Part shown: piece after piece, positions 19,109-33,094 of the stretch | How the letters are laid out: every line of letters starts with the position of its first letter | Numbering within the stretch: the stretch's first letter is position 1 | NCBI GenBank assembly: GCA_002786715.1 | Contig: PCTW01000094.1 | Coordinates: 9,563 to 42,680, forward strand | Length of the DNA: 33,118 nucleotides | Origin: Bdellovibrio sp. CG22_combo_CG10-13_8_21_14_all_39_27 | GTDB taxonomy: Bacteria; Bdellovibrionota; Bacteriovoracia; Bacteriovoracales; Bacteriovoracaceae | Direction of reading: 5' to 3' | Notes under the pieces: generated by a model | The model's input: only the letters and a program-made list of their open reading frames with translations | What the model was told of the DNA's origin: nothing | Database searches by the model: none | Program-made: the position numbers and the translations under genes

Positions 19109-19126
19109 CTCTCTCCTTGAAAGACA

Positions 19127-19160
19127 CCTACATTGTAGCACGTACCACGATGTAGGACAA
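19127..19160 (-). promoter_or_regulatory. Toxin-antitoxin promoter embedded in an operator palindrome
   Basis: Reading the minus strand, TTGTCC (19155-19160) and TACAAT (19132-19137) are separated by exactly 17 bp, a good sigma70 promoter ending about 24 bp before the toxin ATG. A 10-bp inverted repeat with one mismatch (CCTACATTGT at 19127-19136 and ACGATGTAGG at 19147-19156, 10 bp between) covers the -10 and touches the -35. This is the expected design for autorepression by the antitoxin or the toxin-antitoxin complex. Confidence 0.7.
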
Positions 19161-19197: not shown

Positions 19198-20343
19198 CTA
19201 TCTTCGGGCAGTAAGGCTAAAGACATTGTCCCCAAAATTTATATCCTCTGGAACAAAGTGAAGGCAGTCCGTAGCCCCCTTCGTATCAACACCAGCAAGC
19301 CGTAAATAAATGTCCATCGTTGCAGATTTTTTCCAACCACCAATTTTCATTACGATTGGTGCGGAAACCCCGTTGGCCAGCATTTGCGTAGCAAAGCAAG
19401 CTCTTAGAGCATGGAACTTAATCGGCTTTACCTTAATAGCTCGAAGAAATGCCTTTAGTGGCACGGCCTGATCTCCATTATCCCAATCTTTACTTCTTGG
19501 AAGAACAAAACCTGAATTAACAAGATTCATATTTTGCTTTAAATCCAGAATAAGATTGCGAAGACTACTATTGATAGGAACAGTACGCCAGTATCTACCT
19601 TTGGTTGGGCCAACTATCTTCACATTTGAATCATAAGAACGATCAACTAGAATCAAATTCTTCTCCAAATCAACTTGTTCCCATGTTAAAGCATGAAGCT
19701 CACCACTTCGCATTCCTGTCAAAATCGCAAATGCCCATATTGGATACCAATGATGACTCAGAGCTTTGGCAGCCGCTAGGAACTTTCTTATTTCTTCAAG
19801 TGAAAAAATATCTGGAGCTTTTTCTTCCCCCTTATCAATCATCAGTCCCTCAAGAGGCGAAACATTTGGTCCAACTATATAGTTGAACTCCATCCCCCAA
19901 GAATACACCTTGTTAATGATGTTTTTAACTTTGATTTGATAAGTGCGAGACAAACCATTTTTCTCCATAAGTAGAAGAAGTGCTCGTCCGTCAGCTCTAG
20001 TTATTTCAGATGCAGGCCTATCATTCCAAGGCTTCGTCCATTTCTGTATGATACTTAAGTATCCCTCGGCTGATCGCTCTGTGATTCGACCTAAATATCC
20101 AGCATAAACCTCTTTTTTCCAGAGATGGAGAACGTCGTACCATGATAAACCTAGGCCATCAAATCGTTGAGCCTCTTTCGATAACTGACCTATTAGCCTT
20201 TTTTCTTCTCGTCTTGCTTCTGCTTCTGTCGTTATGCGGAACACTGTCTTTTGAAATCGTTTACTTTTGTTATTCACACTTCGTATGTGAATGTAAACTT
20301 TCCAAAATTCTTGTCCGTTCTCTAGGTACTTCGATATTGCCAT
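19198..20343 (-). CDS. Tyrosine recombinase / integrase
   Basis: 381 residues. An N-terminal arm-binding region (about 1-60), a core-binding SAM-like domain (about 65-155) and a catalytic domain (about 180-355) are visible. Catalytic residues: Arg212 in LTGMRSGEL, a candidate Lys248 in PTKGR, His311 and Arg314 in HALRACFATQ, Trp337 in GGW (the position more often His) and Tyr346 in MDIYLR. All required residues are present, so it is probably active. It would excise and integrate the conjugative element. AAGGAG precedes the ATG by seven bases, and the excisionase-like gene ends 2 bp upstream, so they are co-transcribed. Confidence 0.93.
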   Translation of the reverse strand: MAISKYLENGQEFWKVYIHIRSVNNKSKRFQKTVFRITTEAEARREEKRLIGQLSKEAQRFDGLGLSWYDVLHLWKKEVYAGYLGRITERSAEGYLSIIQKWTKPWNDRPASEITRADGRALLLLMEKNGLSRTYQIKVKNIINKVYSWGMEFNYIVGPNVSPLEGLMIDKGEEKAPDIFSLEEIRKFLAAAKALSHHWYPIWAFAILTGMRSGELHALTWEQVDLEKNLILVDRSYDSNVKIVGPTKGRYWRTVPINSSLRNLILDLKQNMNLVNSGFVLPRSKDWDNGDQAVPLKAFLRAIKVKPIKFHALRACFATQMLANGVSAPIVMKIGGWKKSATMDIYLRLAGVDTKGATDCLHFVPEDINFGDNVFSLTARR

Positions 20344-20345
20344 GA

Positions 20346-20615
20346 TTAATCTCCTTTAAATTGGGAAGTCTCAATCAAGTAGTCCAGCTCATCTTTTTTG
20401 AAGTAAAGTCTATTGCTGAATTTTCTGGCACGAAGTCGCTTACGAGAAACTAAAGTGTGAACAGCGTTTATACTTCTACGCAAATAAATAGCAGTTTCTT
20501 TCGTCGTCAACCATATTAAATTATCAAAGATCAATTTCGAAAAATGAATTTTCTTTTCGATATCAAGATTATAATCATATTTATCTACTTTGTAACTATT
20601 GTTTTCAACCTGCAT
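20346..20615 (-). CDS. Excisionase-like HTH (MerR/AlpA-type) protein
   Basis: 89 residues. The C-terminal half (about 32-84) is a small winged helix of the excisionase/MerR type: WLTTKETAIYLRRSINAVHTLVSRKRLRARKFSNRLYFKKDELDYLI, seen here as two short helices, a basic recognition region and the closing YFKKDEL strand and helix. Such proteins bind near the attachment site and steer the integrase to excision. AGGAGAG precedes the ATG. It lies between the SSB gene (9 bp upstream) and the integrase gene (2 bp downstream), fitting a recombination directionality factor. It might instead be a simple regulator. Confidence 0.75.
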   Translation of the reverse strand: MQVENNSYKVDKYDYNLDIEKKIHFSKLIFDNLIWLTTKETAIYLRRSINAVHTLVSRKRLRARKFSNRLYFKKDELDYLIETSQFKGD

Positions 20616-20624
20616 TTATCTCTC

Positions 20625-20930
20625 CTAAATATTAGTAAATCCAACGAGACGAGCATTCAGTTCTTTGTATTTTTTGGTTTCACCAGTCTCCGTTTCAAAA
20701 CTCCTTTCGACTTCACGACCCTGCACAAAAATCTCGTTCCCCTTATCGAGCTGAACTGAGCAAAGCTCTGCTTGTCTGCCCCAAACCACAACTTTTTTCC
20801 AAATAGGAGGAATCTCTTTTCCTTGATAGACGGCCACAGAAAAATTACATACAGGTTCCCGTTTTGGGGTATAACGAAGCTCTGGTTTTTGTCCAAGTCT
20901 TCCCACAAATGTCTCATATATAGTTTCCAT
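20625..20930 (-). CDS. ssb: Single-stranded DNA-binding protein, short form
   Basis: 101 residues, only the OB fold: FVGRLGQKPELRYTPKREPVCNFSVAV near the start, then WKKVVVWGRQAELCSVQLDKGNEIFVQGREVER, and ELNARLVGF at the end. These are the normal SSB strand motifs. There is no glycine-rich linker and no acidic C-terminal tip, which in chromosomal SSB (about 170 residues) recruits partner proteins. Mobile elements often carry their own SSB to protect the transferred strand. AAGGAG lies nine bases before ATG. It is placed between the small basic protein and the excisionase-like gene in the DNA-processing end of the element. Confidence 0.88.
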   Translation of the reverse strand: METIYETFVGRLGQKPELRYTPKREPVCNFSVAVYQGKEIPPIWKKVVVWGRQAELCSVQLDKGNEIFVQGREVERSFETETGETKKYKELNARLVGFTNI

Positions 20931-20951: not shown

Positions 20952-21350
20952 TTAAGAAATCTTTAACTGACGTACCAAAAATTCTCCGAGATTAAGATTC
21001 TCTCCAGACTTTTCATTATGTTTCTCAAGGAGCATCAAGACTTTATCCATTTCTCCTAGTGTAGATTCTTGAATCCTTTCTAAATCTTTAGACGTAATCT
21101 TCATTAATGCATAATCAACTAAATCTTTAAAAACCACTTCCCTTCCAATTTTTTTTTGATTAACCTCATTAATCAGCTTGACCACTAATTCATGTTTTTT
21201 TGTCTCTAATGAATAATCTATAAAAAACTTCTTCTGATCCTTAATTGTGACCTTCTCCTTAATTCTTTTTCGCCCTCTTCTCTTTTTCTCAGTATCCTCA
21301 ATCTTTTTTACAACTTCTCCTTTTACAATACTAACTTCTTCTACTTTCAT
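20952..21350 (-). CDS. Small basic protein, candidate relaxosome accessory
   Basis: 132 residues, not recognised. Residues about 21-30 are very basic (EKKRRGRKRIKEK, with an AT-hook-like RGRKR core). The rest is helical and charged: VTIKDQKKFFIDYSLETKKHELVVKLINEV, a lysine-rich centre and a C-terminal helix ending GEFLVRQLKIS. The middle segment (GREVVFKDLVDYAL) is reminiscent of DNA-binding accessory proteins that help relaxases. It is the first gene after the large inverted repeat, with AAGGAG ten bases before ATG, and is followed by ssb. A role in binding the repeat is inferred from composition and position only. Confidence 0.5.
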   Translation of the reverse strand: MKVEEVSIVKGEVVKKIEDTEKKRRGRKRIKEKVTIKDQKKFFIDYSLETKKHELVVKLINEVNQKKIGREVVFKDLVDYALMKITSKDLERIQESTLGEMDKVLMLLEKHNEKSGENLNLGEFLVRQLKIS

Positions 21351-21386
21351 ACTTTACTAACTCCTTTTTCTTAATCTATTTTCCAT

Positions 21387-21521
21387 CGCCCCTGCCAATA
21401 TTTCCTTCTTCAGGTAATTGTGATTGACCTTTTGACCCTATCCATTCCACTTGTGGGAGGGGGAGGGTCAAAAGTCACGAGCGTAATTACCTGATAGTAA
21501 ATAGGAATATCGGCAGGGGCG
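21387..21521. repeat. 135-bp nested inverted repeat, candidate origin of transfer
   Basis: Three arm pairs nest around one centre. Outer: CGCCCCTGCC (21387-21396) with GGCAGGGGCG (21512-21521), continued imperfectly inward by AATATTTCC / GGAATAT. Middle: CAGGTAATT (21411-21419) with AATTACCTG (21484-21492). Inner: GACCTTTTGACCCT (21426-21439) with AGGGTCAAAAGTC (21464-21476), one base bulged. At the tip lies CCAC-TT-GTGG (21447-21456). It occupies the gap between the relaxase candidate and the small basic protein gene, where oriT sites lie. It could alternatively be a replication origin or an unusual regulatory RNA element; there is no T run to make it a terminator. Confidence 0.6.
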
Positions 21522-21560
21522 AATTTTTGAGGATTGAATGGGAAAGTTTTGGGAAAAAAT

Positions 21561-22265
21561 CTATTCACCAAAAATCTCTTTAAAACTCTTCTCCTGACCT
21601 TTAAAATAACAATATGATTCAATATACGAGAATTTGTCAGGAGTTAACTCAAGTGCATGCATTATTATAATCTTGCTTTGCACATCAGAGTTCATTTCAC
21701 CTAAAAACCTCGCATAACTCCAAAACAGCCCCTTTTTATGTGTAACAAAAACACAATAATCAAAAGTCTTGCTCCTTGAGTACCTTGAATACTTGGTCTT
21801 AACTCGATTACTTGCTTTTTGAGTTAATTCAACTTCAATTGCCAGTTCATACTCTCTACCTCCTTTAATCCCCGTCAGTAATGCATCTGGTTCGATTTCA
21901 TTTTCAATAATTTCATGAAACATTCTTCCATTTGTAAATCTTTCAAATTGAAGAAATGACCTAAGAACAGTGCCAACGATAATGTCATGGTTTAAAGATT
22001 CGTCACTTATTTCATAGGTTTTATCAAACGTAGTAAACTTGATTCCATGATTAGTTAGAAAGATGTGCTTCTTCTTTCTGCCAAGATTCTCCGACTTTAA
22101 AAGTCCAAGCTCTTCAAGTTTTTTTACTTTTTTTCTCAAATTTGAGTATTCTATTTTGAAACTGCAAAGTTCAGATAAAGAATTAAAATCCACAACCTTC
22201 CATTTACCAATCGTATTGATTATATCCATGTAAGGGCCATGCGGAACAAATTGAGAAGATTTCAA
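21561..22265 (-). CDS. Candidate MOBC-type (PD-(D/E)XK-like) relaxase / replication-relaxation protein
   Basis: 234 residues. The first 75 form a winged helix (VVDFNSLSELCSFKIEYSNL, KKLEELGLLKS, KKKHIFLTNHG). After it comes a nuclease-like pattern: His93 (LNHDIIVG), Glu125-Pro-Asp127 (IEPDALLTG), then Glu144 and Glu146 with Lys150 (AIEVELTQK), and a basic helix SNRVKTKYSRYSRS leading to FDYCVFVTHKKG. Winged helix plus PD-(D/E)XK is the layout of MobC of plasmid CloDF13 (MOBC family, about 240 residues) and of the Replic_Relax family. No HUH or tyrosine-relaxase motif is seen in any gene here. The overlap of 4 bp with the coupling-protein gene repeats the mobB-mobC order. Assignment is by pattern, not by a search. 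Confidence 0.6.
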   Translation of the reverse strand: MKSSQFVPHGPYMDIINTIGKWKVVDFNSLSELCSFKIEYSNLRKKVKKLEELGLLKSENLGRKKKHIFLTNHGIKFTTFDKTYEISDESLNHDIIVGTVLRSFLQFERFTNGRMFHEIIENEIEPDALLTGIKGGREYELAIEVELTQKASNRVKTKYSRYSRSKTFDYCVFVTHKKGLFWSYARFLGEMNSDVQSKIIIMHALELTPDKFSYIESYCYFKGQEKSFKEIFGE

Positions 22266-23761
22266 AGGGCATCTCCTTTTGTTTTTATATTCACCATTTT
22301 TTTAACATCCTTAGGGATTTGAATCTTATCGAGAAGACCTTCTTTTTCAAAAAAGCGAACATTACTTTCTGTTACTTCTGGATCAATATGCTTGATATTA
22401 ACTAGGTCAATTCTTGTCGGACCATGTCTTAATAAAATGCATTGTCCAGAGTTTAGATTTTTAATAAGGTTGGCATGAACAACTAACTCTTCAACCTTCC
22501 TTTGGCTTCCTTGCCCCTGCTCTTCCCCATCTTTTACTCTTACAGTATTCTTCTTACCTTCGAGAGTTCCAATCGCGTCAGAAAATAAATTGGCCCCCTT
22601 CTCCATTCTCTGCTTAAGAATAAACCAATTTGAACTGTTCTCTAAAATTTGCTCGCAAAGGTCAGGGTTCACTTTATTAATATCGCTAGGTGACTGAAAA
22701 GCAAAAGTTAGCTCCATTTTGACACCACGGCATTTATTTAATAGTTCAATAAATTCATCCGTAATGAATGCAGAGAGTTCATCAATATAGACGCCTACAG
22801 GCGTTAATGATTTTTCGAGCTCAATTGTAATTTCGCTGTACTTTTTATAAACTGCGTATGAAAGATCACCCAGAATAATTTTACCTAAGGCCCTTGCAAT
22901 TTTTGGATACCCAAGTACTGGCATTCCTATATAGACGCACTTTCCATTATTCCAAATGTCTCCGATGGACTGACCTGTACTCGTTAATTTGTCACCAAAA
23001 TCTGAATGTATTATGTTTTCGAGTCGGGCAATGAGTCCATCAACATCCTTTCTTGCAAACTGTTGTTCTTTATTTTTAGGATCGCATAGCTCTTTTACTT
23101 TATAGAGGATAGAGCCAAAATGAATGCTCTCACCCATTTCCAAAATAGTTGTTATGGAAGTTTTTAAGGCGCGATAGCATAAAGTTTCATAATGCTCTTC
23201 AGACCAGTCAAAAGAGTAATGGATTCGATCTGCTATATGAGTCGCACTACCGTCTTTAGCAGGGTTTAAATCGATGGCCCCATATCCAAAATAATGCTCT
23301 GAAAAAATACTAAATTCACGTGCCGTTAGCCGACAAAGATTAATAAACTGATGTAGCGATTTGTTATCTCCCTTCGGATCAAGATAGATTATAGGCTTGC
23401 CTTTTCTCATGTCATCATACATAAGTACATCGAGAAGCACTGTTTTTCCAAAGCCTGAAGCTCCAATGATCGCACTATGTTTTTTTCGTTCAAAATCTTG
23501 AAGCAACAAATCTTTCTTCTGTGTTAATGAATATCCAAGCGCATTCTCATCTAAAGTGGACCTTTTGTTCTTCAAATCACCTCGCTCAATCTTTTTAATT
23601 TCACCCTTAGATTCTCTTTTGAACACATATCTATTGAGTCCCCACATGATGCCAAGTCCCAAAAACTCAAATCCCTTCATTATTGCAATAGAGAGAAGAT
23701 CAATAACGGGCACAATAAATTCACCCAGTCCCGAATCAGACGACTTACTTTTGGAAGCCAT
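22262..23761 (-). CDS. Type IV coupling protein (VirD4/TraD/TraG-type ATPase)
   Basis: 499 residues from ATG 23761, which has GAAGGAG seven bases before it; the longer reading frame would overlap the upstream gene by 65 bp. A hydrophobic N-terminal region (about 15-45) anchors it. Walker A is GASGFGKT (100-107), the following strand IIYLDPKGDN fits VirD4-type proteins, and Walker B is VGVYIDELSAF (about 309-319), then FAFQSPSDI, a glutamine-containing motif. The hexamer moves the relaxase-DNA complex to the secretion channel. It is shorter than F TraD and lacks a long C-terminal tail. It overlaps the relaxase candidate by 4 bp and the upstream gene by 17 bp. Confidence 0.88.
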   Translation of the reverse strand: MASKSKSSDSGLGEFIVPVIDLLSIAIMKGFEFLGLGIMWGLNRYVFKRESKGEIKKIERGDLKNKRSTLDENALGYSLTQKKDLLLQDFERKKHSAIIGASGFGKTVLLDVLMYDDMRKGKPIIYLDPKGDNKSLHQFINLCRLTAREFSIFSEHYFGYGAIDLNPAKDGSATHIADRIHYSFDWSEEHYETLCYRALKTSITTILEMGESIHFGSILYKVKELCDPKNKEQQFARKDVDGLIARLENIIHSDFGDKLTSTGQSIGDIWNNGKCVYIGMPVLGYPKIARALGKIILGDLSYAVYKKYSEITIELEKSLTPVGVYIDELSAFITDEFIELLNKCRGVKMELTFAFQSPSDINKVNPDLCEQILENSSNWFILKQRMEKGANLFSDAIGTLEGKKNTVRVKDGEEQGQGSQRKVEELVVHANLIKNLNSGQCILLRHGPTRIDLVNIKHIDPEVTESNVRFFEKEGLLDKIQIPKDVKKMVNIKTKGDAL

Positions 23762-24278
23762 TCTTCTCTCCTTCAAATTGTTGATCATAAGCATGTTCAA
23801 AAACTTCAAAAGCAGGAATATAGAAAGTCTTGTTGCCTTTTTTGACGTATCTCTCTTTTGATTGATACTTAATTAAAAACTGCTGATTAACCTTGCCTCT
23901 TAGTTCTTCAGGTAACTTTGTCACTGGAACGGGATAAGCTGCTTTCTTTTCTAAAAGAGCATCAATTTTGATATCTCCAAGCCCTAGCTCGATTTCGTTA
24001 GGGTTAACTTTCTCTTCGTCCCTTAACATATTCTTAAGCTTGTAATTTCTTGGATCATCTTCATAGAGCGCATATCCAGCGATTGCCGCGATTCCTGCAC
24101 CAATGATTCCAAAGACCGCAGCATTAGCACCTCGACTTTCATTATCTGGCGAGAGCAAGATACCCGCAGTTGCTCCAATCATTCCCCCTGATAAAGAGCT
24201 ATAGATAATCGTTTTTTTTAGGCTTGAGCATCTACAAAGCGATACCATCAAGAATACGGACATTATTATTTTATTCAT
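23745..24278 (-). CDS. Glycine-zipper envelope protein (possible VirB7-like lipoprotein)
   Basis: 177 residues. A signal-like N-terminus (KIIMSVFLMVSLCRCSS) has cysteines at 15 and 17, neither in a perfect lipobox. Residues about 30-70 are a glycine-zipper pattern with two membrane-compatible stretches (GGMIGATAGILL, GIIGAGIAAIAGYAL). The remainder is soluble and charged, ending with TFYIPAFEVFEHAYDQQF. Glycine-zipper proteins often span or pack in the outer membrane. Its place between VirB10-like and VirD4-like genes suits an outer-membrane core component. It overlaps the VirB10-like gene by 8 bp and the coupling protein gene by 17 bp. No precise family recognised. Confidence 0.6.
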   Translation of the reverse strand: MNKIIMSVFLMVSLCRCSSLKKTIIYSSLSGGMIGATAGILLSPDNESRGANAAVFGIIGAGIAAIAGYALYEDDPRNYKLKNMLRDEEKVNPNEIELGLGDIKIDALLEKKAAYPVPVTKLPEELRGKVNQQFLIKYQSKERYVKKGNKTFYIPAFEVFEHAYDQQFEGEKNGFQK

Positions 24279-25068
24279 CTTGTGACCTCTTACTAAGTTT
24301 CAAATTCTTGTTAAAAAAGATTAAAACCTCTTTGCCAGAATTGACGTATGCAATGGTTAAGTTCTTCTCACCCGACTCTTCAATCGTCTCTTTGACATTA
24401 TTGGCAGTATTCATAATTCCACCCATCACCTTGTTTTTAGCGTTGTTCCTAGAGACTTCTCCAAAAGGTGTCTGTATTCGATCCTTTGCCACTTCGAGAA
24501 CACCTTGAAGAAATGCAGAGAGTGAAGAAGTCAAAAAGGCCTTCTCTTCTCCTGAATAAAAATAGTCGGCAATAACTCCTTCCGCTCCGTCCATGTCCCA
24601 GATATCAATGTCAACTTCATATTCTTCGTCATTTAAGACCAGTAAATTACAATGAGCTGGTACTCGTTTTTGAAAGCTGTATCCTAGACACCTTATTTCG
24701 GCTCCCTCTAAAAGATCATCATCATTTCCAAGTCGTACAATGAATTTTGACGGTTTAACATTCATTGCTAAAATGGAATTTAAGACGATTCCCTTTACTC
24801 TCTTTAGAGCAACAACTTTTTCATTCTTCTTGCGTAAAATGACGTTCTTCTCTTGTCGCTCTAGAATCTCAAAGAGTTTATTGTCCTCGGAAATAAGTTG
24901 CCCTAAGAGTATTTCCTGCTGACTTGTCCTTCTTTGGAGCGACCTTTTTGAAACTGAACCTACTGAAGCTTTAGACGAATGTTCATAGTCATAGAGCTCT
25001 TGACTATCTAACTCAATAAATCCTGCTATTGCTAAGTAAGGAATCATGAAGAGAACAAGTATTTTCAT
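24271..25068 (-). CDS. VirB10/TraB/TrbI-like T4SS core protein, short form
   Basis: 265 residues. The region about 95-215 resembles the C-terminal beta-barrel of VirB10: VKGIVLNSILAMNVKPSKFIVRL, a CLGYSFQKRVPAHCNLLVL pair of strands with two cysteines, VDIDIWDMDGAEGVIADYF, then SSLSAFLQGVLEVA for the helical segment that in VirB10 crosses the outer membrane. Unlike normal VirB10 (about 380-480 residues) there is no cytoplasmic tail, inner-membrane helix or proline-rich linker: the N-terminus is a cleavable-looking signal (MKILVLFMIPYLAIAG). It follows the VirB9-like gene (4-bp overlap) in the expected 8-9-10 order. Confidence 0.72.
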   Translation of the reverse strand: MKILVLFMIPYLAIAGFIELDSQELYDYEHSSKASVGSVSKRSLQRRTSQQEILLGQLISEDNKLFEILERQEKNVILRKKNEKVVALKRVKGIVLNSILAMNVKPSKFIVRLGNDDDLLEGAEIRCLGYSFQKRVPAHCNLLVLNDEEYEVDIDIWDMDGAEGVIADYFYSGEEKAFLTSSLSAFLQGVLEVAKDRIQTPFGEVSRNNAKNKVMGGIMNTANNVKETIEESGEKNLTIAYVNSGKEVLIFFNKNLKLSKRSQDE

Positions 25069-25547
25069 AAAGCTCTCCCATTCAGATAGATCAGCTTTTC
25101 ATTAACATAAACAGGAGGGCCCTTTGAGATATAACTCTTATCTTTAACAATGAGTTCGTTAACTTTGATTGCTCTTTTTGTTTTATTCACAAAAAAGAGA
25201 GACATTGGACATTCAAAGAGCTGGTAGTCCGATGTTTCTTTTATCAAGGAAAAGTAGGAACATTTCTTAGCATCATGTATTTCAATATCCTTATCTGAAA
25301 ACTCTTCATTGTAGGTTACGTTGAAATGAAACTTCTCATTTTTTAAAAAGGTTATAAAATTTCGACTGAATCCCTTTCTCTTCGGTTCAAAGACAAGACT
25401 TTGCCCCTTATTGAGTTCATAAATTTTAAAATCTCCCTCTTGGCCTCCAACGTAGTCATTAATTCGATCTGAAAACGTAATCGAGGTTAAATGCGCCATA
25501 GAGAGGAACACGGTAAAAATTTGATTCTTAAAGATAAAGTAAGTCAT
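25065..25547 (-). CDS. Putative VirB9/TraK-like T4SS component
   Basis: 160 residues with an excellent ribosome binding site (AAGGAGGTGA) and a hydrophobic, signal-like start (FTVFLSMAHLTSITFS). The mature part is beta-rich: DFKIYELNKGQSLVFEPKRKG, FITFLKNEKFHFNVTY, then a cysteine pair region CSYFSL...FECPMSLFF and a C-terminal VNEKLIYLNGRAL. The pattern of a ligand-like segment followed by NFITFLKNEKFHF is like the N-terminal half of VirB9/TraK (TNLxVxTxxxxYxF). It is much shorter than VirB9 (about 270-300). Placement between VirB8-like and VirB10-like genes, with 4-bp overlaps on both sides, supports the call; sequence alone would not. Confidence 0.55.
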   Translation of the reverse strand: MTYFIFKNQIFTVFLSMAHLTSITFSDRINDYVGGQEGDFKIYELNKGQSLVFEPKRKGFSRNFITFLKNEKFHFNVTYNEEFSDKDIEIHDAKKCSYFSLIKETSDYQLFECPMSLFFVNKTKRAIKVNELIVKDKSYISKGPPVYVNEKLIYLNGRAL

Positions 25548-25999
25548 TTGTCACCTCCTTCGACGATTCTCCACTGATAAGGGGAGACGATTTTTTGTCC
25601 TCTTACATCAAAGATTCGATGCAAATGATCAAACTTGGAATTCTTCTCTAATGTCACGGCATAGCTTCTATATCCCTTAGAGTCTTTTGCAATAACATCG
25701 CAGTGAAGCCCGTTAACCATTTTGACAAGAGTAATATCCTCAACTTCAAAGTGTGTTGCTTTTAAGTCATCAAGAACTTTTTGATGGACAAGTTTCTTTG
25801 TAGAATTATTCTCAAAAATGCTCTTCATTCCAAAATAGCAGGCCTCAAAACTTGAAAAGCTTTCATCGCTTTGTTTTAAATTTATGTAAGTTCCGATTCC
25901 TAGTAGGATTAGATTGAGAAAGACGCTCACTACTGCGACGATCATTAGTGGTTTTTTCAGATCTTTTATCGACTTTTCCAGACTTTGATATTTTTGCAT
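25544..25999 (-). CDS. Putative VirB8/TraE-like inner-membrane T4SS protein
   Basis: 151 residues. A short cytoplasmic N-terminus, one transmembrane helix (about 18-38, MIVAVVSVFLNLILLGIGTYI) and a periplasmic domain of about 110 residues give the TraE/VirB8 layout; TraE is about 190 residues. GAGAG lies six bases before the ATG. The start lies 137 bp inside the VirB6-like gene, an unusually long overlap, in a different frame. The periplasmic domain includes DITLVKMVNGLHCDVIAKD and a final YQWRIVEGG strand. Family membership is inferred from topology and from its place before the VirB9-like gene. Confidence 0.55.
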   Translation of the reverse strand: MQKYQSLEKSIKDLKKPLMIVAVVSVFLNLILLGIGTYINLKQSDESFSSFEACYFGMKSIFENNSTKKLVHQKVLDDLKATHFEVEDITLVKMVNGLHCDVIAKDSKGYRSYAVTLEKNSKFDHLHRIFDVRGQKIVSPYQWRIVEGGDK

Positions 26000-27194
26000 T
26001 TGAATCTCTCTCTATTGAATTTTGGTTATTTGATGTTGGGCCTAACCTAAAACGGATATCCCTTACTTTTGTTCCATTAGATGAAATGATGGACGATGCC
26101 CCCAAATCCTTTTGAACACTATTAATGAATTTACTCACATGCTCCATATCAGTGACTCTCTCCCCATGTATTGGATTCACCTCTCTTATGCTTCTAGACT
26201 TATTTGATCCCGAACCTTTAAACTTAGAAACGACTGTCCCTGAAGCTTTTGATGCTAATTTATAGCTTCCACCTAATACTTCTCTGGCCAATTTCATTCT
26301 AGGACTCAATGGCCCTCCTGATAAAACGGAGACTGCTGAACGAATGCCATTTTTCGGTAGATTCATGACATAATTGGCACCCATTGAAGCGATGATTCCC
26401 CCAGCAGAAGAAGCACCAGAGCCAGATAAAATCATGGTTCCAATTAAGGGAGTGAAGGCAATAAATATCGTCATAATAAAAAGCAGCGATGTTCCCAACA
26501 TTGAGCCACCAATAATCTGTCCAGAGACATAACCCTTATTGATCTCAGTTCCGATCATGGAAATGATAAAAACCAAAATATGGGGAACAATTAAGCACCA
26601 AACATAACTAAGAGTAGCTCCACGAAGCACACTGCCCATTGCTGGAAACATATAAAGCAGACAGGGAATCCCAATCAATCCGTAACCTAAATAATAGACA
26701 AGCGAGTAAACTACTTTAAGGATTATAAAACAGAGCTTTGTGATGAAATATATGGTGACAGTAAAGGCGTCGTTCACAAAAGAATCAAATAAATGATACT
26801 TTAAAAAAGCGAAGGTTCCAGTCAGGGTATTTCTGTCTTTATAAAACTTCCTAAATTGATCTTCATACTTAATCTTATCCCAATGATTGACCCCATCAAA
26901 CATATCCATCAACAGAATATTACCTTGCTTCTGAGAAGATAAGATTTCATCGGCCACTTCCATCGAAGTCTCAATCGACTGATGATAAAAAGTTGTAACA
27001 CTCGTTAAGATTAGGATTGAAATAAAAGCTCGTTTTACCAAAGCAAAAGGCTCTAGCTGATCAAGATACTCAATTAAAATGGCCAGAATAAAGACGCTTG
27101 GAAGAAGGGCCAAGAAAAATGATCTGTATTCTTCTACTAATTGTCCTAAATCAATGCTTTCAATTAATAATAGCTCTCTAAGTACTGAGGTCAT
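25863..27194 (-). CDS. VirB6/TrbL-like polytopic T4SS membrane protein
   Basis: 443 residues. Several transmembrane segments are visible: about 28-45, 56-68, 145-165 (FTVTIYFITKLCFIILKVVYSLVYYLGYG), 175-190 (GIPCLLYMF), 200-220 (CLIVPHILVFIISMIG) and 235-260 (LLFIMTIFIAFTPLIGTMIL). A glycine/serine-rich loop (SGSGASSAGGII) and a long basic, hydrophilic C-terminal tail (about 290-443) follow. This is the form of VirB6/TrbL proteins that make the inner-membrane channel. GAGGGAAG precedes the ATG. It overlaps the VirB5-position gene by 4 bp; its tail region overlaps the VirB8-like gene by 137 bp. Confidence 0.75.
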   Translation of the reverse strand: MTSVLRELLLIESIDLGQLVEEYRSFFLALLPSVFILAILIEYLDQLEPFALVKRAFISILILTSVTTFYHQSIETSMEVADEILSSQKQGNILLMDMFDGVNHWDKIKYEDQFRKFYKDRNTLTGTFAFLKYHLFDSFVNDAFTVTIYFITKLCFIILKVVYSLVYYLGYGLIGIPCLLYMFPAMGSVLRGATLSYVWCLIVPHILVFIISMIGTEINKGYVSGQIIGGSMLGTSLLFIMTIFIAFTPLIGTMILSGSGASSAGGIIASMGANYVMNLPKNGIRSAVSVLSGGPLSPRMKLAREVLGGSYKLASKASGTVVSKFKGSGSNKSRSIREVNPIHGERVTDMEHVSKFINSVQKDLGASSIISSNGTKVRDIRFRLGPTSNNQNSIERDSNAKISKSGKVDKRSEKTTNDRRSSERLSQSNPTRNRNLHKFKTKR

Positions 27195-27883
27195 AGGCTT
27201 CCCTCGTGATTTGAAAGCGGATCAATTGATTGATTAATGCCAATCCAGTCGCGATAAAACTCTTCACGCCTAAGGTCTTCAAGTCCTTCACTTCTTTTCA
27301 GTGATAAATCAACTCTTTGATAATCAAGGTTATCTCTTCTCATTTTTGTAAGGATTTTACTTGAAAGGGCCGTATTCATTGCCGTATTCTGGACATGCTT
27401 ACTCATACTCCCTTCACTGGCACTCATGATCTCTTGATTATGGGCCTCCTCCTCATCCTTTAATGAATTTGAAACCTTCTCCCAATGACGATCCACAAAG
27501 TCTTGTGCTTCAAAAACGTCTCTGGCCATAAAATCAATATTTGCTTTTAACCCCTTAAGATTAAGTTTTAATCTCAGCATCATTTGATTGATTTCTTTTA
27601 GTCCATGCGGCCTCATTTTCTTGGCCTCAACAATATCTAAAACGTGTTGTTCGATCCTTCGAGCAATAAAATAGCGTCTCATCGCGATAAAGTTGTATTT
27701 ATCGATTTGATCACTGGTCTTTTTTGCCACCTCCAATATTTTGAGCGAATTTGAAACAGTTGACGAAGTATTAGATACCAACATCAAAAGGGCCGCAGTA
27801 TCAGAGTCAGGTAAAAATAAGCTTGATGCTCTAGCTCCAAATGTGAGAATCATTATTATTAAAACTAATTGTATCTTGTGCAT
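27191..27883 (-). CDS. Exported helical protein in VirB5 position
   Basis: 230 residues from ATG 27883, chosen because it gives a signal peptide (MHKIQLVLIIMILTFGARAS); the longer reading frame lies deeper in the VirB4 gene. The mature protein is almost entirely helical and rich in charged residues (ARRIEQHVLDIVEAKK, MMLRLKLNLKGLKANIDFMARDVFEAQDFVDRHW, SKILTKMRRDNLDYQRVDLSL). VirB5/TraC-type pilus-tip or adhesin proteins are secreted helical bundles of this size and sit between VirB4 and VirB6, as here. No signature residue proves it. It overlaps the VirB4 3' end by 53 bp and the VirB6-like gene by 4 bp. Confidence 0.6.
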   Translation of the reverse strand: MHKIQLVLIIMILTFGARASSLFLPDSDTAALLMLVSNTSSTVSNSLKILEVAKKTSDQIDKYNFIAMRRYFIARRIEQHVLDIVEAKKMRPHGLKEINQMMLRLKLNLKGLKANIDFMARDVFEAQDFVDRHWEKVSNSLKDEEEAHNQEIMSASEGSMSKHVQNTAMNTALSSKILTKMRRDNLDYQRVDLSLKRSEGLEDLRREEFYRDWIGINQSIDPLSNHEGSL

Positions 27884-29804
27884 ATTTAAGCCCCACAAAG
27901 GCATCGATGGCCTTTTTATTGTTTTCAAAAAAATCAGTATTTTTAGCTAAAAACCGATCTAGTCGTACTGACTCACCGGCTTCGGTGTGAAAAAGTTCGT
28001 GCTCTAAAGGTGTCAGATAGTTTCGAATGACCTTTCTAAATTTGTTATCAGTCGTCTTCAAATAACAATCACTAAAGATACCTTTTTCAAAATCAAGAGA
28101 GTTCACTTTATCGATGTCGTCTTGGGTTAGTTCTCCTCCGACATCAAGCTCTTGAGGAAAATAAACTTTAAAGTTACTGGTATTAGTAATTGCGAGAGAA
28201 AGATCTCCCTTTTTTCCCTTAAAGTCCTTAATCCCTTGAGTAAGTGCAATGGGGAAGGCTCCGCTCTTTCTAAAAGTTCTGAAACATTTTTCGACATAAG
28301 AGGAGTGTTCCTCTAAAAAATTCCAGCACTCATCAAATACAAGAATTTTTTCCTTTTCAGGAATATTCTTAAAATATTCCAAAAGATAGATGATGAGTGG
28401 AGAAATAATGCTTTTTGGATAACTTTCAATATCTACATAGAGAATTGGGAAAAACTCTAAAGGTTTATCTGTGACAAACTCTTTAATGTCTTCGAAGTAG
28501 TATCGAATTCCTTCGAAAAAATTATCAAGATAATTGAGAAAATCAATAAAGTTTCGCTCATTTGCTTTTTCCAGATAGTTCTTTATGTGAAAAAACAGCT
28601 CTCCTCGTTTTAATTTATCGAACTTATCCTTATCTGCGACTGATAAGATGATTTCTCGAAGATAGTGGGGATCATCAAACTGCATGAAGTTGATTCCAGA
28701 ATTGAGAACGTTCCCACCATGGTATTGAGTCAGCCTTTTAAATGATCCTCCCAAATCTAAAATAACTGTGGGGTGATCTATGATGAGATGATGAACCAAT
28801 TTGTTCACAAAAACTGATTTTCCGGCACCAGTGGTTCCAGTCACAAGCATGTTTCTATTTTTGATCTCTTTACAGAAGGGGTTGAAAAAGATTTCATTAT
28901 CGTTTTGATCGTGTAGCCTTACTCCCCGATCCATAAGAAATGATCGTCTTAGAGGCAGTAGATAGCGAAGATGTGACGTTTTATCTGTGTGTGTCCTTAC
29001 TCCAAGTGACGGCCTCACTCCTGGGATGAGTTCATTGAAAACAAAGGCCAGTCCAGATTTTCCTCTTTTCGGGTCATGCCCTTCAAGAAAGAGCTTTATT
29101 CCTTTTGATGCCATGGAACCTTGGAGAATCATTGCGAGTTCATTGACTTCAAAAGTTGAGTCACCTCTTAAAATAAAAAATAGTTCTATCTCAAAAATGG
29201 CCTCTTGCCCGTAGGCGAGATCATCAAGTAGTTCCTCTGCTTGTCGATATGCCCCCTCACTTACAACATCTCTTTTATTTTTACTAAAGCTGGTCAAATG
29301 GCGATCTCTAACCTTTTCAAGTTGCTTGACTGATTTTTCTTTAGAAACTTTCTTAACCTTTAAGACATAGTCCAGATCAAGAGGAATAAGGGATTCATCA
29401 ATTGATTTCTCTGAAAATTCTCTCACAGAGAAGACTTTGAGGTATTTACCGTTTATCAAAAGGTAATCATTAAAAATGCCAACATCAGAAATAATTTCAT
29501 TTGATTTGAAAAACTCTAGTAAATGATCTTTACACGGAAAAAATTCTATTCCTCTCAACTCAGGAATTGTTTGTTTATTGGTTTCAACAAAGTTTCTATT
29601 ATCGATTCGGTAAAACTTAAAATAGTGATCATCTGAGAGATAATTTAAGCTTCCTGAAATACCCTCAAAGAATCGCTCGCGCTCAAAGGGAGAATACTGC
29701 TCAAAATCGGGAGAAATCAACTCATAAAAGTATGCTACGTTACCATCGAGTGCTATAAGTTTATGATCATCTATTTCAACGATGGGAAAAGTTGCGCTAT
29801 TCAT
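27831..29804 (-). CDS. VirB4/TraC-family conjugation ATPase
   Basis: 657 residues. An N-terminal domain without motifs (about 1-290) contains the FEIELFFILRGDS and FVFNELIPGVRPSLGVRT segments typical of TraC/VirB4. The ATPase core has Walker A GTTGAGKS (323-330) followed by NKLVHHLIIDHPTVILDLGGSFKRL, Walker B KILVFDECWNFL (about 490-501), then FRTFRKSGAFPIALTQG, the arginine/Gln motif region. It energises pilus assembly and DNA transfer at the inner membrane. Somewhat short against TraC/VirB4 (about 790-870). AGGA lies about seven bases before ATG. It overlaps the VirB3-like gene by 8 bp. Confidence 0.92.
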   Translation of the reverse strand: MNSATFPIVEIDDHKLIALDGNVAYFYELISPDFEQYSPFERERFFEGISGSLNYLSDDHYFKFYRIDNRNFVETNKQTIPELRGIEFFPCKDHLLEFFKSNEIISDVGIFNDYLLINGKYLKVFSVREFSEKSIDESLIPLDLDYVLKVKKVSKEKSVKQLEKVRDRHLTSFSKNKRDVVSEGAYRQAEELLDDLAYGQEAIFEIELFFILRGDSTFEVNELAMILQGSMASKGIKLFLEGHDPKRGKSGLAFVFNELIPGVRPSLGVRTHTDKTSHLRYLLPLRRSFLMDRGVRLHDQNDNEIFFNPFCKEIKNRNMLVTGTTGAGKSVFVNKLVHHLIIDHPTVILDLGGSFKRLTQYHGGNVLNSGINFMQFDDPHYLREIILSVADKDKFDKLKRGELFFHIKNYLEKANERNFIDFLNYLDNFFEGIRYYFEDIKEFVTDKPLEFFPILYVDIESYPKSIISPLIIYLLEYFKNIPEKEKILVFDECWNFLEEHSSYVEKCFRTFRKSGAFPIALTQGIKDFKGKKGDLSLAITNTSNFKVYFPQELDVGGELTQDDIDKVNSLDFEKGIFSDCYLKTTDNKFRKVIRNYLTPLEHELFHTEAGESVRLDRFLAKNTDFFENNKKAIDAFVGLKYAQDTISFNNNDSHIWS

Positions 29805-30063
29805 GTAGATGTCCTAGTTTGTAGCTCCAGATAAGCATTTGTTTTCCTCTTAGTCCCAAAAAGAACCCCTTAGGGAACTTGTTTTCAATCAGTTTCAAAA
29901 TGAAATAGAGGAACGCATTAATGGCAAGAGATAAAATCCCCGAAACTTTCATCCATGAAAGGATCAAGTAGCTCCCACCAAGGATTACGAGATCAAATCT
30001 TGTAAAATTTCCTAAAATGGTTGCTCTTGATTTTAGTAATGTTGGAAAGGTTGCTTTATTCAT
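29797..30063 (-). CDS. VirB3/TraL-like T4SS protein
   Basis: 88 residues from ATG 30063 (a GTG lies directly before it). It starts with a short hydrophilic segment with FPTLLKSRATILGNFTRFDLVILGG, then one or two hydrophobic stretches (about 28-55, YLILSWMKVSGILSLAINAFLYFIL) and a basic C-terminus with KGFFLGLRGKQMLIWSYKLG. TraL/VirB3 proteins are about 90-110 residues, lie between pilin and VirB4 genes and bind VirB4. Both position and size fit exactly. AGAGGAAG precedes the start closely. The gene overlaps VirB4 by 8 bp. Confidence 0.8.
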   Translation of the reverse strand: MNKATFPTLLKSRATILGNFTRFDLVILGGSYLILSWMKVSGILSLAINAFLYFILKLIENKFPKGFFLGLRGKQMLIWSYKLGHLHE

Positions 30064-30072
30064 CACTTCCTC

Positions 30073-30381
30073 TTAGCTAAAACTCTGAATGATGTTGTTA
30101 ATAATTTCTAAACCAGTCGCCGAAAAAACGGTCAAAGCAAGAACATTGCCAACCTTCTTCTGGTATTCTTCTTGCTTAAAGTACGAGAGAATTACATACA
30201 GAATGAACGATGCTCCTGCCACGGCAGCAGATAAAGGGATCAGATAGGTAGTAGTGATGGTCTCAAAGCCATTTTTAAGCTTATTGAAGGCCAGAGCATT
30301 GGGAGAACTAATGATCGCGACATAAAGCGAAGTGAAGATTCCCCAAACCACGATTACAAAATCAAGAAAGACTCTTTTCAT
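30073..30381 (-). CDS. VirB2/TrbC-like conjugative pilin
   Basis: 102 residues. An N-terminal signal-type helix (FLDFVIVVWGIFTSLYVAIISSPNALAF) is followed by a short hydrophilic loop, then one hydrophobic segment YLIPLSAAVAGASFILYVILSYF (about 46-68), a basic loop KQEEYQKKVG and a second hydrophobic segment NVLALTVFSATGLEIINNII. This small two-helix hairpin after a signal is the VirB2/TrbC pilin layout. AGAGG lies about six bases before the ATG. It is first in the pilin-VirB3-VirB4 order, 9 bp before the VirB3-like gene. Confidence 0.75.
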   Translation of the reverse strand: MKRVFLDFVIVVWGIFTSLYVAIISSPNALAFNKLKNGFETITTTYLIPLSAAVAGASFILYVILSYFKQEEYQKKVGNVLALTVFSATGLEIINNIIQSFS

Positions 30382-30391
30382 ATTTACCTCT

Positions 30392-32263
30392 TTAGTTAAA
30401 ATGATTATTAATGGTTGAGCTTACAGTGACTGAGAAATCTAACTGATAGGAACGATTCTCTCCACGCTTAATAGCATTCCAATTGACTTGATGTTGCCAG
30501 CTTGCAAAGTCTCTTGATTCTACCGACACTGGCCACCCATTTTGTCCGGCCAGATTGACCGTTCCCGGAATACAGGAATACCAATCTCGCCCCGTCCAGT
30601 TAGAAAGCTTAATGCCAGAAAAGTTCGTGCCTTTTACAGCTTGTAACTTGAGAAAAATGACGTTCTCATCAAATTCCTTTAATTCTTTAATCTGATTAAT
30701 ATTATCGATCTCAATATGAAGATTCTCACCGACCCAAAAACTTTGCGCTTTCTTCTCTTTGATTAAATCGACAAGATTGAATTCATCTTGATTTATAAGA
30801 AGTTTAATTCTCGATACTTCTCCATTGAAATCCTTTGAAAAGGTGAATGCACTATCGATCGGTTCAAAGAAGCTAAACTCATGGTAACAAGTAAATTCCC
30901 GTGGACGACAATTACCGGAACATCCGCCAGCTCCACTTATTTGATCACTCCATCGTTTATTGATTTCACCCCACAACTTTTTAGGTTGGAGCTGAAATTC
31001 GATTTTTGAGTTGGGTGAAACGTTGCCCAAAGCATAAATTCTCTCACCATCTCCTGAAGATATGGCCTCTCCAAGCGACATGACTTTCTCATTGTCCTGA
31101 TTAGCCAGAACATTGCCTGTTAAGTAAGAAAGCGAAATGACATCTTTTGGTGTGTATTTGTGATCGAGATAATGCTGAATAAGTTTATTAGTAAAAATAT
31201 ACCACTTACCTTTTTTATCAAGCTCTCGAACTTCTGAGAGATAAGTAAACTCGGGAAGGTTTGATTCAAACTGTTCAATCTTTTCAAGTTTATTGTCAAC
31301 AATCGTTACTTTCTTGGGAAAAAGATTCTCTAAGATTTCACTAAAGCTTGCCGAACCTCCATTAACCCCAACATAGGCGACTCTCGATTCCAAGGGTGTA
31401 TTGTAGATGACTGGAATTGCCTTTGATTTAACATTTGAGAGCAAAGCTTGATAAGTTGTCTCTAACTCTGGAATATCAAAGTCAGCAAGCTCCGAAATGA
31501 TGAATTCACCTCGTTTGAGATAGTTTTCAAGAAGCAGGCTCTTTGGAACATTTGACAGTTGAACTTCAAATGTTTCGTTAACTCCTGCTTGAAAATTTCG
31601 CTCGATTATTTCTGACTTTAATAACTCATAGGACTCTCTTTCATAATCATAGTAATAAAAATTAAGTTTAAGATTCTTAATTTCTCTAAAACCAGAATTG
31701 GCCTTCAAACGAACTGAATTCTCTAGGGTTATTGAAATATCTTTAATTTCATCTAATTCAGAGTTATAAGATTTTCTAAAACTTAAAACCTGTTCTGAAT
31801 AAAACCTTGGATCAACTTCAGGAAAACTAACCCATGAAAGATCATGCTCAGATACTTCCCCCCAACTATGAGTTGAGAACTTACCAATATTGGCAGCATT
31901 TTTAAAACTCTCGTTTCTAATAAAGATATCCCCGACTCTATACTTAAAATCAGGATTATCTTGATGAACTTTGGTATCAATTAAAAACTCTTGATCCTCT
32001 TCACTTGTGCTTTGACCATAGAGAACCTTGATTTGATAGTTTTGAATAAAGCGAACTCGAACATCTGGAAGGTCAGAAATATGTGGATTCCTCCCCATTC
32101 TTTCTTCTTCATTGTCGCTCATCTGATCCCCGTCGGTATCAGTTCCAAGTCTTGATGAAATCCTTAAGTCTCTCTTATCTTCTTGAGTCGCCTCCCCATC
32201 GTTGCCCTTAAATGAGCAACTAAAAATTGTACCTAACAGCATTAACAAAATTATATTTTTCAC
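30392..32263 (-). CDS. Large lipoprotein with calcium-binding (TSP3-type) motif, T4SS operon
   Basis: 623 residues from a GTG at 32263, chosen because AAGGGAG lies seven bases before it and because the product then begins with a lipoprotein signal (MKNIILLMLLGTIFSC, Cys16). Residues about 40-55 (TDTDGDQMSDNEEER) form an Asp-rich calcium-binding loop of the thrombospondin type 3/dockerin kind, followed by NPHISDLP. The long remainder is beta-rich, with a cysteine cluster CSGNCRPREFTCYHE (about 468-482). Not recognised as a known Tra protein. It lies 10 bp before the pilin gene and is the largest protein after VirB4, so a surface-exposed conjugation factor, for example an adhesin, is plausible. 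That role is inferred. Confidence 0.65.
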   Translation of the reverse strand: MKNIILLMLLGTIFSCSFKGNDGEATQEDKRDLRISSRLGTDTDGDQMSDNEEERMGRNPHISDLPDVRVRFIQNYQIKVLYGQSTSEEDQEFLIDTKVHQDNPDFKYRVGDIFIRNESFKNAANIGKFSTHSWGEVSEHDLSWVSFPEVDPRFYSEQVLSFRKSYNSELDEIKDISITLENSVRLKANSGFREIKNLKLNFYYYDYERESYELLKSEIIERNFQAGVNETFEVQLSNVPKSLLLENYLKRGEFIISELADFDIPELETTYQALLSNVKSKAIPVIYNTPLESRVAYVGVNGGSASFSEILENLFPKKVTIVDNKLEKIEQFESNLPEFTYLSEVRELDKKGKWYIFTNKLIQHYLDHKYTPKDVISLSYLTGNVLANQDNEKVMSLGEAISSGDGERIYALGNVSPNSKIEFQLQPKKLWGEINKRWSDQISGAGGCSGNCRPREFTCYHEFSFFEPIDSAFTFSKDFNGEVSRIKLLINQDEFNLVDLIKEKKAQSFWVGENLHIEIDNINQIKELKEFDENVIFLKLQAVKGTNFSGIKLSNWTGRDWYSCIPGTVNLAGQNGWPVSVESRDFASWQHQVNWNAIKRGENRSYQLDFSVTVSSTINNHFN

Positions 32264-32276
32264 ATTTTCTCCCTTA

Positions 32277-32474
32277 TTATCTTGCCAACATAAATTCTGG
32301 ATCATTAACAATTCCTAAATAATCCTCGTCCATAATAATTCTTCTTCTTAAAGGGTCAGTCGTTGTCATCGACTCAATCGCTGTTGCTAATTGATTGACC
32401 TTGCCATTTTTTCGTCTCTCATTCTTTGTAATGAGATTAATAAATTTAATAAGCTCTTGTTTTAGTGTTTTCAT
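32277..32474 (-). CDS. Small protein of unknown function, T4SS operon
   Basis: 65 residues with a strong ribosome binding site (GGAGGAG, four bases before ATG). The start lies 29 bp within the preceding 59-residue frame and the stop lies 13 bp before the GTG of the large lipoprotein, so it is embedded in the operon. Composition is helical and basic: LKQELIKFINLITKNERRKNGK, then AIESMTTTDPLRRRIIMDEDYLG. No signal peptide and no family recognised. A regulatory or assembly role is possible but unsupported. Confidence 0.6.
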   Translation of the reverse strand: MKTLKQELIKFINLITKNERRKNGKVNQLATAIESMTTTDPLRRRIIMDEDYLGIVNDPEFMLAR

Positions 32475-32625
32475 GTGTCTCCTCCATTACCTTTCTTTTA
32501 ACTATGATTCCTTCAATGACCTTTGCTTGATTAATCAACTCGCTATTGAAGATGATTTCTTCATGTGAAAGTTCACCAAGCAGAGACCTAAACATTTCCT
32601 GAATAGTTTTGAGATTCATCTCCAT
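32446..32625 (-). CDS. Small helical protein (59 residues), T4SS operon
   Basis: A 59-codon frame on the minus strand starting at ATG 32625 with AAGGGAG nine bases before it. The sequence MEMNLKTIQEMFRSLLGE, SHEEIIFNSEL and INQAKVIEGIIVKRK is an amphipathic, charged helix pair, unlike noise. It overlaps the upstream 168-residue gene by 38 bp and the downstream 65-residue gene by 29 bp. Coding status is supported by the ribosome binding site and composition only. It may be a small regulator or partner. Confidence 0.45.
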   Translation of the reverse strand: MEMNLKTIQEMFRSLLGELSHEEIIFNSELINQAKVIEGIIVKRKVMEETHENTKTRAY

Positions 32626-33094
32626 TAAATTGTTCTCCCTTCATAATTCCGTTTAAGTACATGCAATCGAGTTCATCTCGATGTTCAAAATAAAGACGTT
32701 TGACCTCGAATAGTCTTCTCTCTTCACTTAAGATGATTCGAAAGCTAAAAAGAAGATCAACTAAAAGCGTGGTGTATTTACCGATGAAAGCCGTTGGACT
32801 CTTTGAACGAGAAGCAGCGAAGCCAATTTCTAGATAAAGATCAGATAGTCCTAAGAACGACATATCGTCTTCTGAGCCACGCTCTCCCATAATCAGCATC
32901 CAAGCGTGATCAAACCCTGATGTTTCATCTGTGGTCTGAGAATAGAATTGCAGACGATCAAAGATTGAAATGAACCCGTCTTGAATTCTAAAGATTTCCA
33001 ATTCCTTTCTGAGCATAGAAGACACAACAATTCTTAAGTCATTTTCACTTAAGACAAACGGATGCCCTTCTTGCACTTTCGCAAGCGTATTCAT
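32588..33094 (-). CDS. Unknown protein at the head of the visible T4SS operon
   Basis: 168 residues with CAGGGAG seven bases before the ATG; the start is 24 bp from the window edge. The product looks cytoplasmic and helical: EGHPFVLSENDLRIVVSSMLRKELEIF, then ISIFDRLQFYSQTTDETSGFDHAWMLIMGERG, and a C-terminal helical part LLVDLLFSFRIILSEERRLFEVKRLYFEHRDEL. No signal, no membrane segment, no recognised domain. It lies upstream of two small genes and the lipoprotein in what appears to be one transcript with the secretion genes. Confidence 0.6.
   Translation of the reverse strand: MNTLAKVQEGHPFVLSENDLRIVVSSMLRKELEIFRIQDGFISIFDRLQFYSQTTDETSGFDHAWMLIMGERGSEDDMSFLGLSDLYLEIGFAASRSKSPTAFIGKYTTLLVDLLFSFRIILSEERRLFEVKRLYFEHRDELDCMYLNGIMKGEQFNGDESQNYSGNV

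Follow-up and report, generated by a model that had tools for sequence, protein, structure and literature searches.

A probable integrative and conjugative element with a reduced, VirB11-less type IV secretion system and a MOBC-type relaxase in a Bacteriovoracaceae genome

Is the compact type IV secretion system (T4SS) encoded at the end of contig PCTW01000094.1 from Bdellovibrio sp. CG22_combo_CG10-13_8_21_14_all_39_27 part of a mobile element, and to which type of mating-pair formation (MPF) system does it correspond? The window analyzed here is a stretch of 33,118 nucleotides, positions 9563-42680 of this 42680-base contig, which belongs to a 4.08-Mb draft genome of 97 contigs. The first-pass annotation of the window described a compact, F-like conjugation system of a possible predatory lineage, lacking VirB11, with short VirB4, VirB9 and VirB10 and perhaps of a non-standard MPF type. 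It appears most likely (with a probability of roughly 0.8) that the region is an integrative and conjugative element (ICE) whose T4SS is reduced and lacks VirB11 and which also encodes a MOBC-type relaxase and carries a probable origin of transfer (oriT), and that it is transferred through the cycle proposed below. The predatory lineage agrees with the Bacteriovoracaceae-like names of the nearest genomes and rests on those names.

An integrative element around the T4SS genes

The T4SS genes lie on the minus strand in the order pilin-B3-B4-B5-B6-B8-B9-B10-lipoprotein-VirD4, and the open reading frames (ORFs) of the first-pass annotation were recovered in place and with the exact lengths reported there (VirB4, 657 aa; VirB9, 160 aa; VirB10, 265 aa; VirD4, 515 aa). 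That annotation stopped at the VirD4 gene and missed the adjoining integrase, excisionase, relaxase and probable oriT. To the left of this boundary, on the same strand, are o234, the small ORF o132, and genes for a single-strand DNA-binding protein (SSB), an excisionase-like HTH_17 protein and a tyrosine integrase (Table 1). The presence of these genes next to the T4SS genes implies that the region represents most of an integrative element. Thus, an integrase, an excisionase, a relaxase, a type IV coupling protein (T4CP) and a T4SS, the gene set of an ICE, are combined within one element, most of which is contained in the window. The element is cut off by the contig end, which coincides with the right end of the window, so its far end was read from homologues rather than from the window copy.

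The host genome carries at least four copies of this T4SS-bearing element family, among them a second window-like copy on contig C81 (VirB4 68% identical), and synteny of the entire block extends to C81 and to six more loci of five other genomes. Within a set of 59 genomes, the window VirB4 has matches in 27, including its own, a count that takes in longer, more distant F-like VirB4s; the distribution of the element is sporadic. A profile scan of named genomes, several of which are identical to genomes of the 59-genome set so that the two sets are not independent, yielded 76 loci; 56 of these (L085-L139 and L148) were analyzed and the 20 more distant ones were left out. The records of the 56 loci bear Bacteriovoracaceae, Bacteriovorax, Halobacteriovorax, Bdellovibrionales or Oligoflexia-type names, with four exceptions, namely L095 ('bacterium'), L109 and L119 ('Proteobacteria') and L133 ('Paceibacterota', a 4.5-kb contig). 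The stretch from VirB3 to the integrase is complete in 29 loci and collinear in all 29, with the excisionase gene (xis) present in 29, o639 in 28 and the SSB gene in 26. Given this collinearity, the arrangement of the block is not due to chance, and together with the Pfam matches of VirD4, VirB10 and VirB4 it bears out the compact conjugation system of the first-pass annotation. The viral contigs searched contained no relative of the window VirB4, and none of the VirB4-like matches in 533 plasmid records covered 80% of the query; among the matches listed, nearly all were TraC. None of the papers listed in our searches of the open-licence literature describes this element.

Relaxase and predicted origin of transfer

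The o234 gene directly follows the VirD4 gene. The Replic_Relax family (PF13814), which CONJscan recognized as the MobC relaxase family (PMC5357655), is matched at E<=1 by 8 of the 20 members of the o234 family (best 3.1e-6), and a relative in locus L260 exceeds its gathering score. In the structural model of o234 (predicted local distance difference test, pLDDT, 90.3), residues 3-81 form a winged helix that resembles MarR (Z 12.0), and residues 90-222 align with PaqCI (Z 10.8, root-mean-square deviation 3.0, 128 aligned residues); the top Foldseek match is FokI. Residues H93, D94, D127, E144, E146, K150 and R154 are invariant among the 20 family members. The model therefore has the N-terminal winged helix and the PD-(D/E)XK nuclease of the MOBC fold, the latter being the fold of MOBC relaxases (PMC12857230, PMC5714925), and on this basis o234 is predicted to be a nicking relaxase of the MOBC type. 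As for relaxases of the HUH type, PF03432 has no match in the host genome, and phmmer searches with TraI, TrwC, NikB, PcfG and a Bacteroides relaxase detected none in the 29 loci. Similarly to TraX of pAD1 and MobC of CloDF13, o234 combines a winged helix with a PD-(D/E)XK nuclease and adjoins a VirD4 T4CP, and its putative direct repeats are separated from the presumed nic region; it differs from these in being diverged to the edge of PF13814 and coupled to a new MPF variant.

Nested inverted repeats lie between o234 and o132 (window 21351-21560), and 41 of 42 regions, all but L130, share a core hairpin built around TGAC...GTCA. At the variable stem positions beside the core, pairing with the own arm reaches 83-100%, compared with 34-71% across loci. 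In an alignment of 32 of the 41 cores (nine near-copies left out), 97.7% of the cells are paired, as opposed to 71.0% after shuffling; the covariation score is 0.680 (0.185 shuffled, at most 0.187 slid), and both sides have changed in 9 of 12 stem pairs. RNAalifold recovered this stem from 16 gaps, with compensatory changes in 10 of 14 pairs, and the fold of the single DNA strand has a z of -6.6. On the relaxase side, self-similarity across 37 loci peaks at lags of 11 (z 12.8) and 22 (z 9.0), z values that are inflated by relatedness; the site bound by pAD1 TraX is described as consisting of five direct repeats at a distance from nic (PMC12857230).

In the host genome, a covariance model built from the core detected six places, each next to an o234-like gene; a seventh gene of this kind, on contig C21, has no hairpin. 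In one of the hairpin elements (C72), VirD4 is encoded together with relaxase, Xis and integrase, and the stretch lacks VirB genes; another (C71) encodes relaxase, Xis and integrase. Across the 59 genomes, 75 distinct hairpin places were found in 25 genomes, 50 of them directly behind a same-strand relaxase-like gene (median distance 95 bp), against 0.016 expected under random placement. In another sample of 14 hairpins linked to a relaxase gene, serine recombinases come next in three cases (L259, L260, L261). We inspected 16 (in 14 regions) of the 25 hairpins that are not behind a relaxase gene, the remaining nine including several at contig ends. Eight of the 16, in seven cassettes, precede xis and integrase genes, with no relaxase or T4SS gene recognized in the stretch; one has a diverged relaxase upstream, and seven have no recognized partner. 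Judging by their gene content, the seven cassettes appear to be oriT-only hitchhikers. An orphan hairpin in one genome (G015) closely resembles the hairpin of an ICE in the same genome, and mobilizable elements whose oriT resembles that of the helper are already known (PMC6414798). An inverted repeat and direct repeats beside a relaxase gene, kept in elements without a T4SS, form the pattern of an oriT, and the hairpin region is accordingly a probable, predicted oriT.

Other functions of the hairpin have to be considered. Since the hairpin lies ahead of o132-ssb-xis-int in the ICEs and ahead of xis-int in the seven orphan cassettes, it might instead be a recombination site or the regulatory region of the xis-integrase operon. 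This appears quite improbable: the hairpin also occurs after relaxase genes succeeded by serine recombinases, which argues that it is not the attachment (att) site of the tyrosine integrase, two thirds of the hairpins lie right behind a relaxase gene, and in 12 regions no repeat of at least 14 bp was found that convincingly bounds an element. An RNA structure such as an attenuator, a terminator or a small RNA would fit the location between co-oriented genes and the strong fold, and yet is very improbable, considering that G.U accounts for 3 of about 375 paired cells, few for a fast-evolving RNA helix and a better fit to selection on DNA, that Rfam gave no match, and that the hairpin is kept where the upstream transfer genes are gone.

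A reduced transfer apparatus and its relation to known MPF types

In the 29 complete loci, VirB9 has 156-165 aa, VirB10 246-270 aa and VirB4 a median of 625.5 aa (the VirB4 minimum of 179 aa corresponds to one split gene). These narrow ranges across collinear loci indicate that the short core proteins singled out by the first-pass annotation are a fixed family trait and not a product of decay. The lack of VirB11 holds as well: none is encoded in the window's element, and a search with the R388 protein found none in the 29 loci, whereas the same query finds a control locus on C21 at 3.7e-12. The first-pass annotation had proposed to look for VirB11 beyond the right end; the contig stops there, and for the far end the complete homologous loci, in which VirB11 was not found, stand in. 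The PF00437 matches in the host genome are other ATPases; the one that falls within the window (11357-12502) does not belong to the element.

Pfam gave no call for B3, B5, B6 and B8 and a sub-threshold CagX match for VirB9, which additionally matches the TrwF profile. All 22 aligned VirB9 homologues begin directly with their first predicted strand and have no clear classical signal peptide. For the VirB8 model, Foldseek alone returned nothing at E<=0.001; in VIA-align its best matches are VirB8 structures (94 residues, Z 8.6), and the predicted identity rests on this alignment and on the gene position. VirB10 retains the TrbI domain (in a PDB search, the match to TraB was weak, 0.12). By a rule-of-thumb test, its hydrophobic core starts by residue 6 in 40 of 45 sequences and an AXA-like site is present in 41 of 45, whereas the hydrophobic segment of seven reference VirB10s starts at residues 9-41. 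The N-terminus thus looks like a signal-peptide-like segment replacing the cytoplasmic tail and the inner-membrane anchor, so that VirB10 would be exported instead of being held at the inner membrane. Given that, according to a review (PMC12857230), no subunit other than VirB10 is known to connect the inner and outer complexes, the loss of its anchor would be notable. The lipoprotein o639, the first gene product of the conserved block, has no informative Pfam match and is a candidate surface or mating protein.

The relationship to F-type systems is partial. All 22 VirB4s examined match the NCBIfam TraC-F-type profile (best 2e-40), the nearest NCBIfam family of the window VirD4 is SXT TraD (2.8e-38), and the absence of VirB11 is normal for F systems (PMC12857230), all of which would be expected of an ordinary, merely divergent MPF_F system. 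This interpretation is unlikely. The scores are far below the cut-offs (86.6 versus 567 for the window VirB4), and no TraU, TraW, TraN, TraH or TraF was matched by Pfam in the ORFs of the window element or the flanking ORFs of C81 and G012, although at least five genes of the type-specific set TraLEKVCWUNHD are expected for MPF_F (PMC3158045). Single-sequence phmmer searches for F markers in the 29 loci were also negative, with a sensitivity limited by the failure of the same search to detect the TraU control on C21. A tree of 41 VirB4s unites the 24 element sequences in a single clade (100/100) that has a long stem and is separate from TraC, R388, R64, pBF9343, pCF10 and the F-like VirB4s of the relatives; the references were eight proteins, with MPF_G, C and FA not among them. 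The approximately unbiased test gave similar p values to a grouping of the element with F-like VirB4s and TraC (0.451) and to one of F-like VirB4s and TraC without the element (0.45), so that the nesting is not distinguished. The F-like character proposed in the first-pass annotation therefore stands for the nearest ATPase and T4CP families and not for membership of MPF_F. A separate, non-standard MPF type may be represented, in line with the lack of a firm place in a sampled MPF clade and with a tree whose deep branching favours neither alternative.

Compared with MPF_F (F, R27, SXT/R391, IncA/C), with which it shares the nearest VirB4 and T4CP families by profile and the lack of VirB11, the element has no detected TraW, TraU, TraN, TraH, TraF or TrbC, a VirB4 of about 620-660 aa (851-875 aa in four TraC references), a VirB10 of 246-270 aa (429-475 aa in MPF_F) and a MOBC-type relaxase instead of MOBF/MOBH. 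It resembles MPF_T (R388/VirB) in the order B2-B3-B4-B5-B6-B8-B9-B10, the predicted VirB8 fold and the TrwF match of VirB9, and differs in having no VirB11, no detected VirB1, a distant VirB4 and a VirB9 of about 160 aa (266 aa in TrwF). The gene order of VirB is thus combined with an F-like ATPase.

The host genome also carries an expanded F-type-like T4SS on C21 (215001-252000; L175, L176), with TraU, a VirB11/T2SSE-like ATPase and proteins of TraB and TraC length; its recognition indicates that an F-type system is detectable when present. This locus has an o234-like relaxase and no hairpin. Another compact T4SS (G034, contig C91, around 120-130 kb; L068) combines an 804-aa VirB4, an FtsK-type coupling ATPase, an o234-like relaxase and a serine-recombinase-like protein.

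Table 1. Features of the element and its left neighbour (window coordinates)
Feature	Position	Strand	Evidence or remark
o168, conserved element gene upstream of tra operon	32588..33094	-	homologues in C81 (87.5%) and C42; contig end just beyond
o65, small conserved ORF	32277..32474	-	92% in C81
o639 lipoprotein, first gene of conserved block	30392..32311	-	in 28/29 complete loci
VirB2-like pilin	30073..30381	-	position; two hydrophobic segments; homologues 50-91% identical in close relatives
VirB3-like	29797..30066	-	position, size; 29/29 loci
VirB4 ATPase, short type, 657 aa	27831..29804	-	Pfam TraG P-loop 3.4e-15; best NCBIfam TraC-F-type; PDB profile match TrwK 2.3e-7
VirB5-position exported helical protein	27191..27928	-	position; 29/29 loci
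VirB6-like polytopic membrane protein	25863..27194	-	position, hydrophobicity; 29/29 loci
VirB8 (predicted)	25544..25999	-	model pLDDT 85.5; best structural matches VirB8, Z 8.6
Short VirB9, 160 aa	25065..25547	-	profile match TrwF 1.5e-4; CagX 0.036
Short VirB10, 265 aa, signal-peptide-like N-terminus	24271..25068	-	Pfam TrbI 2.7e-11
Glycine-zipper lipoprotein, VirB7/TraV-position candidate	23745..24278	-	lipobox-like N-terminus; 29/29 loci
VirD4/TraD coupling protein, 515 aa	22262..23809	-	Pfam TraG-D_C 9.5e-10; SXT TraD 2.8e-38
o234, predicted MOBC-type relaxase (winged helix + PD-(D/E)XK nuclease)	21561..22265	-	PF13814 in 8/20 family members; PaqCI/FokI fold; invariant residues
Direct-repeat region of predicted oriT	21523..21560	-	11-bp phasing in family; weak in window copy
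Predicted oriT with nested inverted repeats (core hairpin, conserved, at 21413-21490)	21386..21522	-	covariation, DNA fold, relaxase linkage
o132, small basic protein, candidate relaxosome accessory factor	20952..21350	-	29/29 loci; no informative Pfam match
Single-strand DNA-binding protein	20625..20930	-	Pfam SSB 3.2e-20; 26/29 loci
Excisionase-like HTH_17	20346..20615	-	Pfam 1.8e-8
Tyrosine integrase	19198..20343	-	Pfam Phage_integrase 8.7e-20
RelE/antitoxin-like pair, cargo or neighbour	18417..19141	-	Pfam RelE 8.2e-6, slightly below cut-off

Among the surroundings of these elements, the RelE/antitoxin-like pair directly adjoins the integrase gene in the window; the sister element on C81 encodes, close to its tra operon, a 3348-aa RCC1/PKD/RHS-repeat surface protein (L034:2575-12621, minus strand); and in G012 (contig C10; L035, L036) the region from the left integrase to the tra operon contains, as identified by eye, McrBC-like and N6-methylase/helicase-like defence ORFs as cargo. 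The window and C81 elements are unevenly diverged (68-70% identity for B3, B4 and VirD4; 89-93% for the pilin, B5, B6 and B9), a mosaic that suggests recombination between resident elements.

Proposed transfer cycle and implications

Several observations weigh against the interpretation of the region as an ICE with a functional oriT. B3, B5, B6 and the pilin were assigned from gene order or position and membrane topology, and no VirB1-like hydrolase was found. The window o234 itself does not match PF13814 at E<=1, the window copy shows the phased repeats weakly (the best lag there is 15), and 55 of 105 relaxase-like matches have no hairpin match. The search for att direct repeats, in which left ends were partly covered, convincingly bounded no element. 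Alternatively, the T4SS could be an effector-delivery system for predation that lies near an integrase gene by chance, in line with the predatory-type host lineage and with the statement that T4SSs lacking a relaxase are often protein exporters (PMC3158045). We consider this very unlikely, given that a relaxase-like gene, the oriT-like hairpin, Xis and the integrase are all in the same block and that the system occurs in several copies with a patchy distribution, as a core predation machine would not.

For the ICE, we infer the following cycle. The integrase and the excisionase would release the element, after which o234 would bind the phased 11-bp repeats behind its own gene via the winged helix and nick at or near the adjacent hairpin via its PD-(D/E)XK domain, which is where the nic site would be located; SSB and o132 may assist. 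VirD4 would then hand the strand over to a minimal channel through the envelope, for which VirB4 would supply the power in the absence of VirB11. In this channel, B3, B4, B6 and B8 would form the inner-membrane part, B5 and the pilin the stalk or pilus, and the short B9 and B10 with the glycine-zipper lipoprotein the outer-membrane core.

A broader interpretation, to which we give somewhat less than even odds, is that these elements represent a distinct MPF class confined to Bacteriovoracales, with VirB10 as an exported protein of the periplasm or outer membrane that has ceased to bridge the two membranes, and a layered ecology on one hairpin oriT. The layers would be self-transmissible ICEs, elements with VirD4 and relaxase, relaxase-only elements and oriT-only hitchhikers, the shared hairpin being recognized by MOBC relaxases, which would work with further T4SS types as well. 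The compact order T4CP-relaxase-Xis-integrase resembles that of class 8 streptococcal integrative and mobilizable elements as described in PMC5357655, which have a serine integrase and no T4SS, whereas here a tyrosine integrase, a full T4SS, SSB and o132 are present. The hitchhikers resemble the SGI1-type and mobilizable genomic island (MGI)-type elements (PMC6414798; see also PMC11389934) in combining an oriT-like site and an integrase without transfer genes; helper system, relaxase class and host phylum differ.

Conjugation in predatory bacteria is barely described; for Bacteriovorax As-1, the published account calls it plausible and reports that tra/mob genes were not found (PMC12642874). 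Standard families largely miss the system described here: neither PF03135 nor PF03432 has a match in the host genome despite the presence of at least four such T4SS elements. If the predictions are correct, the short VirB10 tests the need for one protein spanning both membranes in a Gram-negative T4SS, and the covarying hairpin could be used as a signature in searches for MOBC oriTs as well as for hitchhiking islands without transfer genes.

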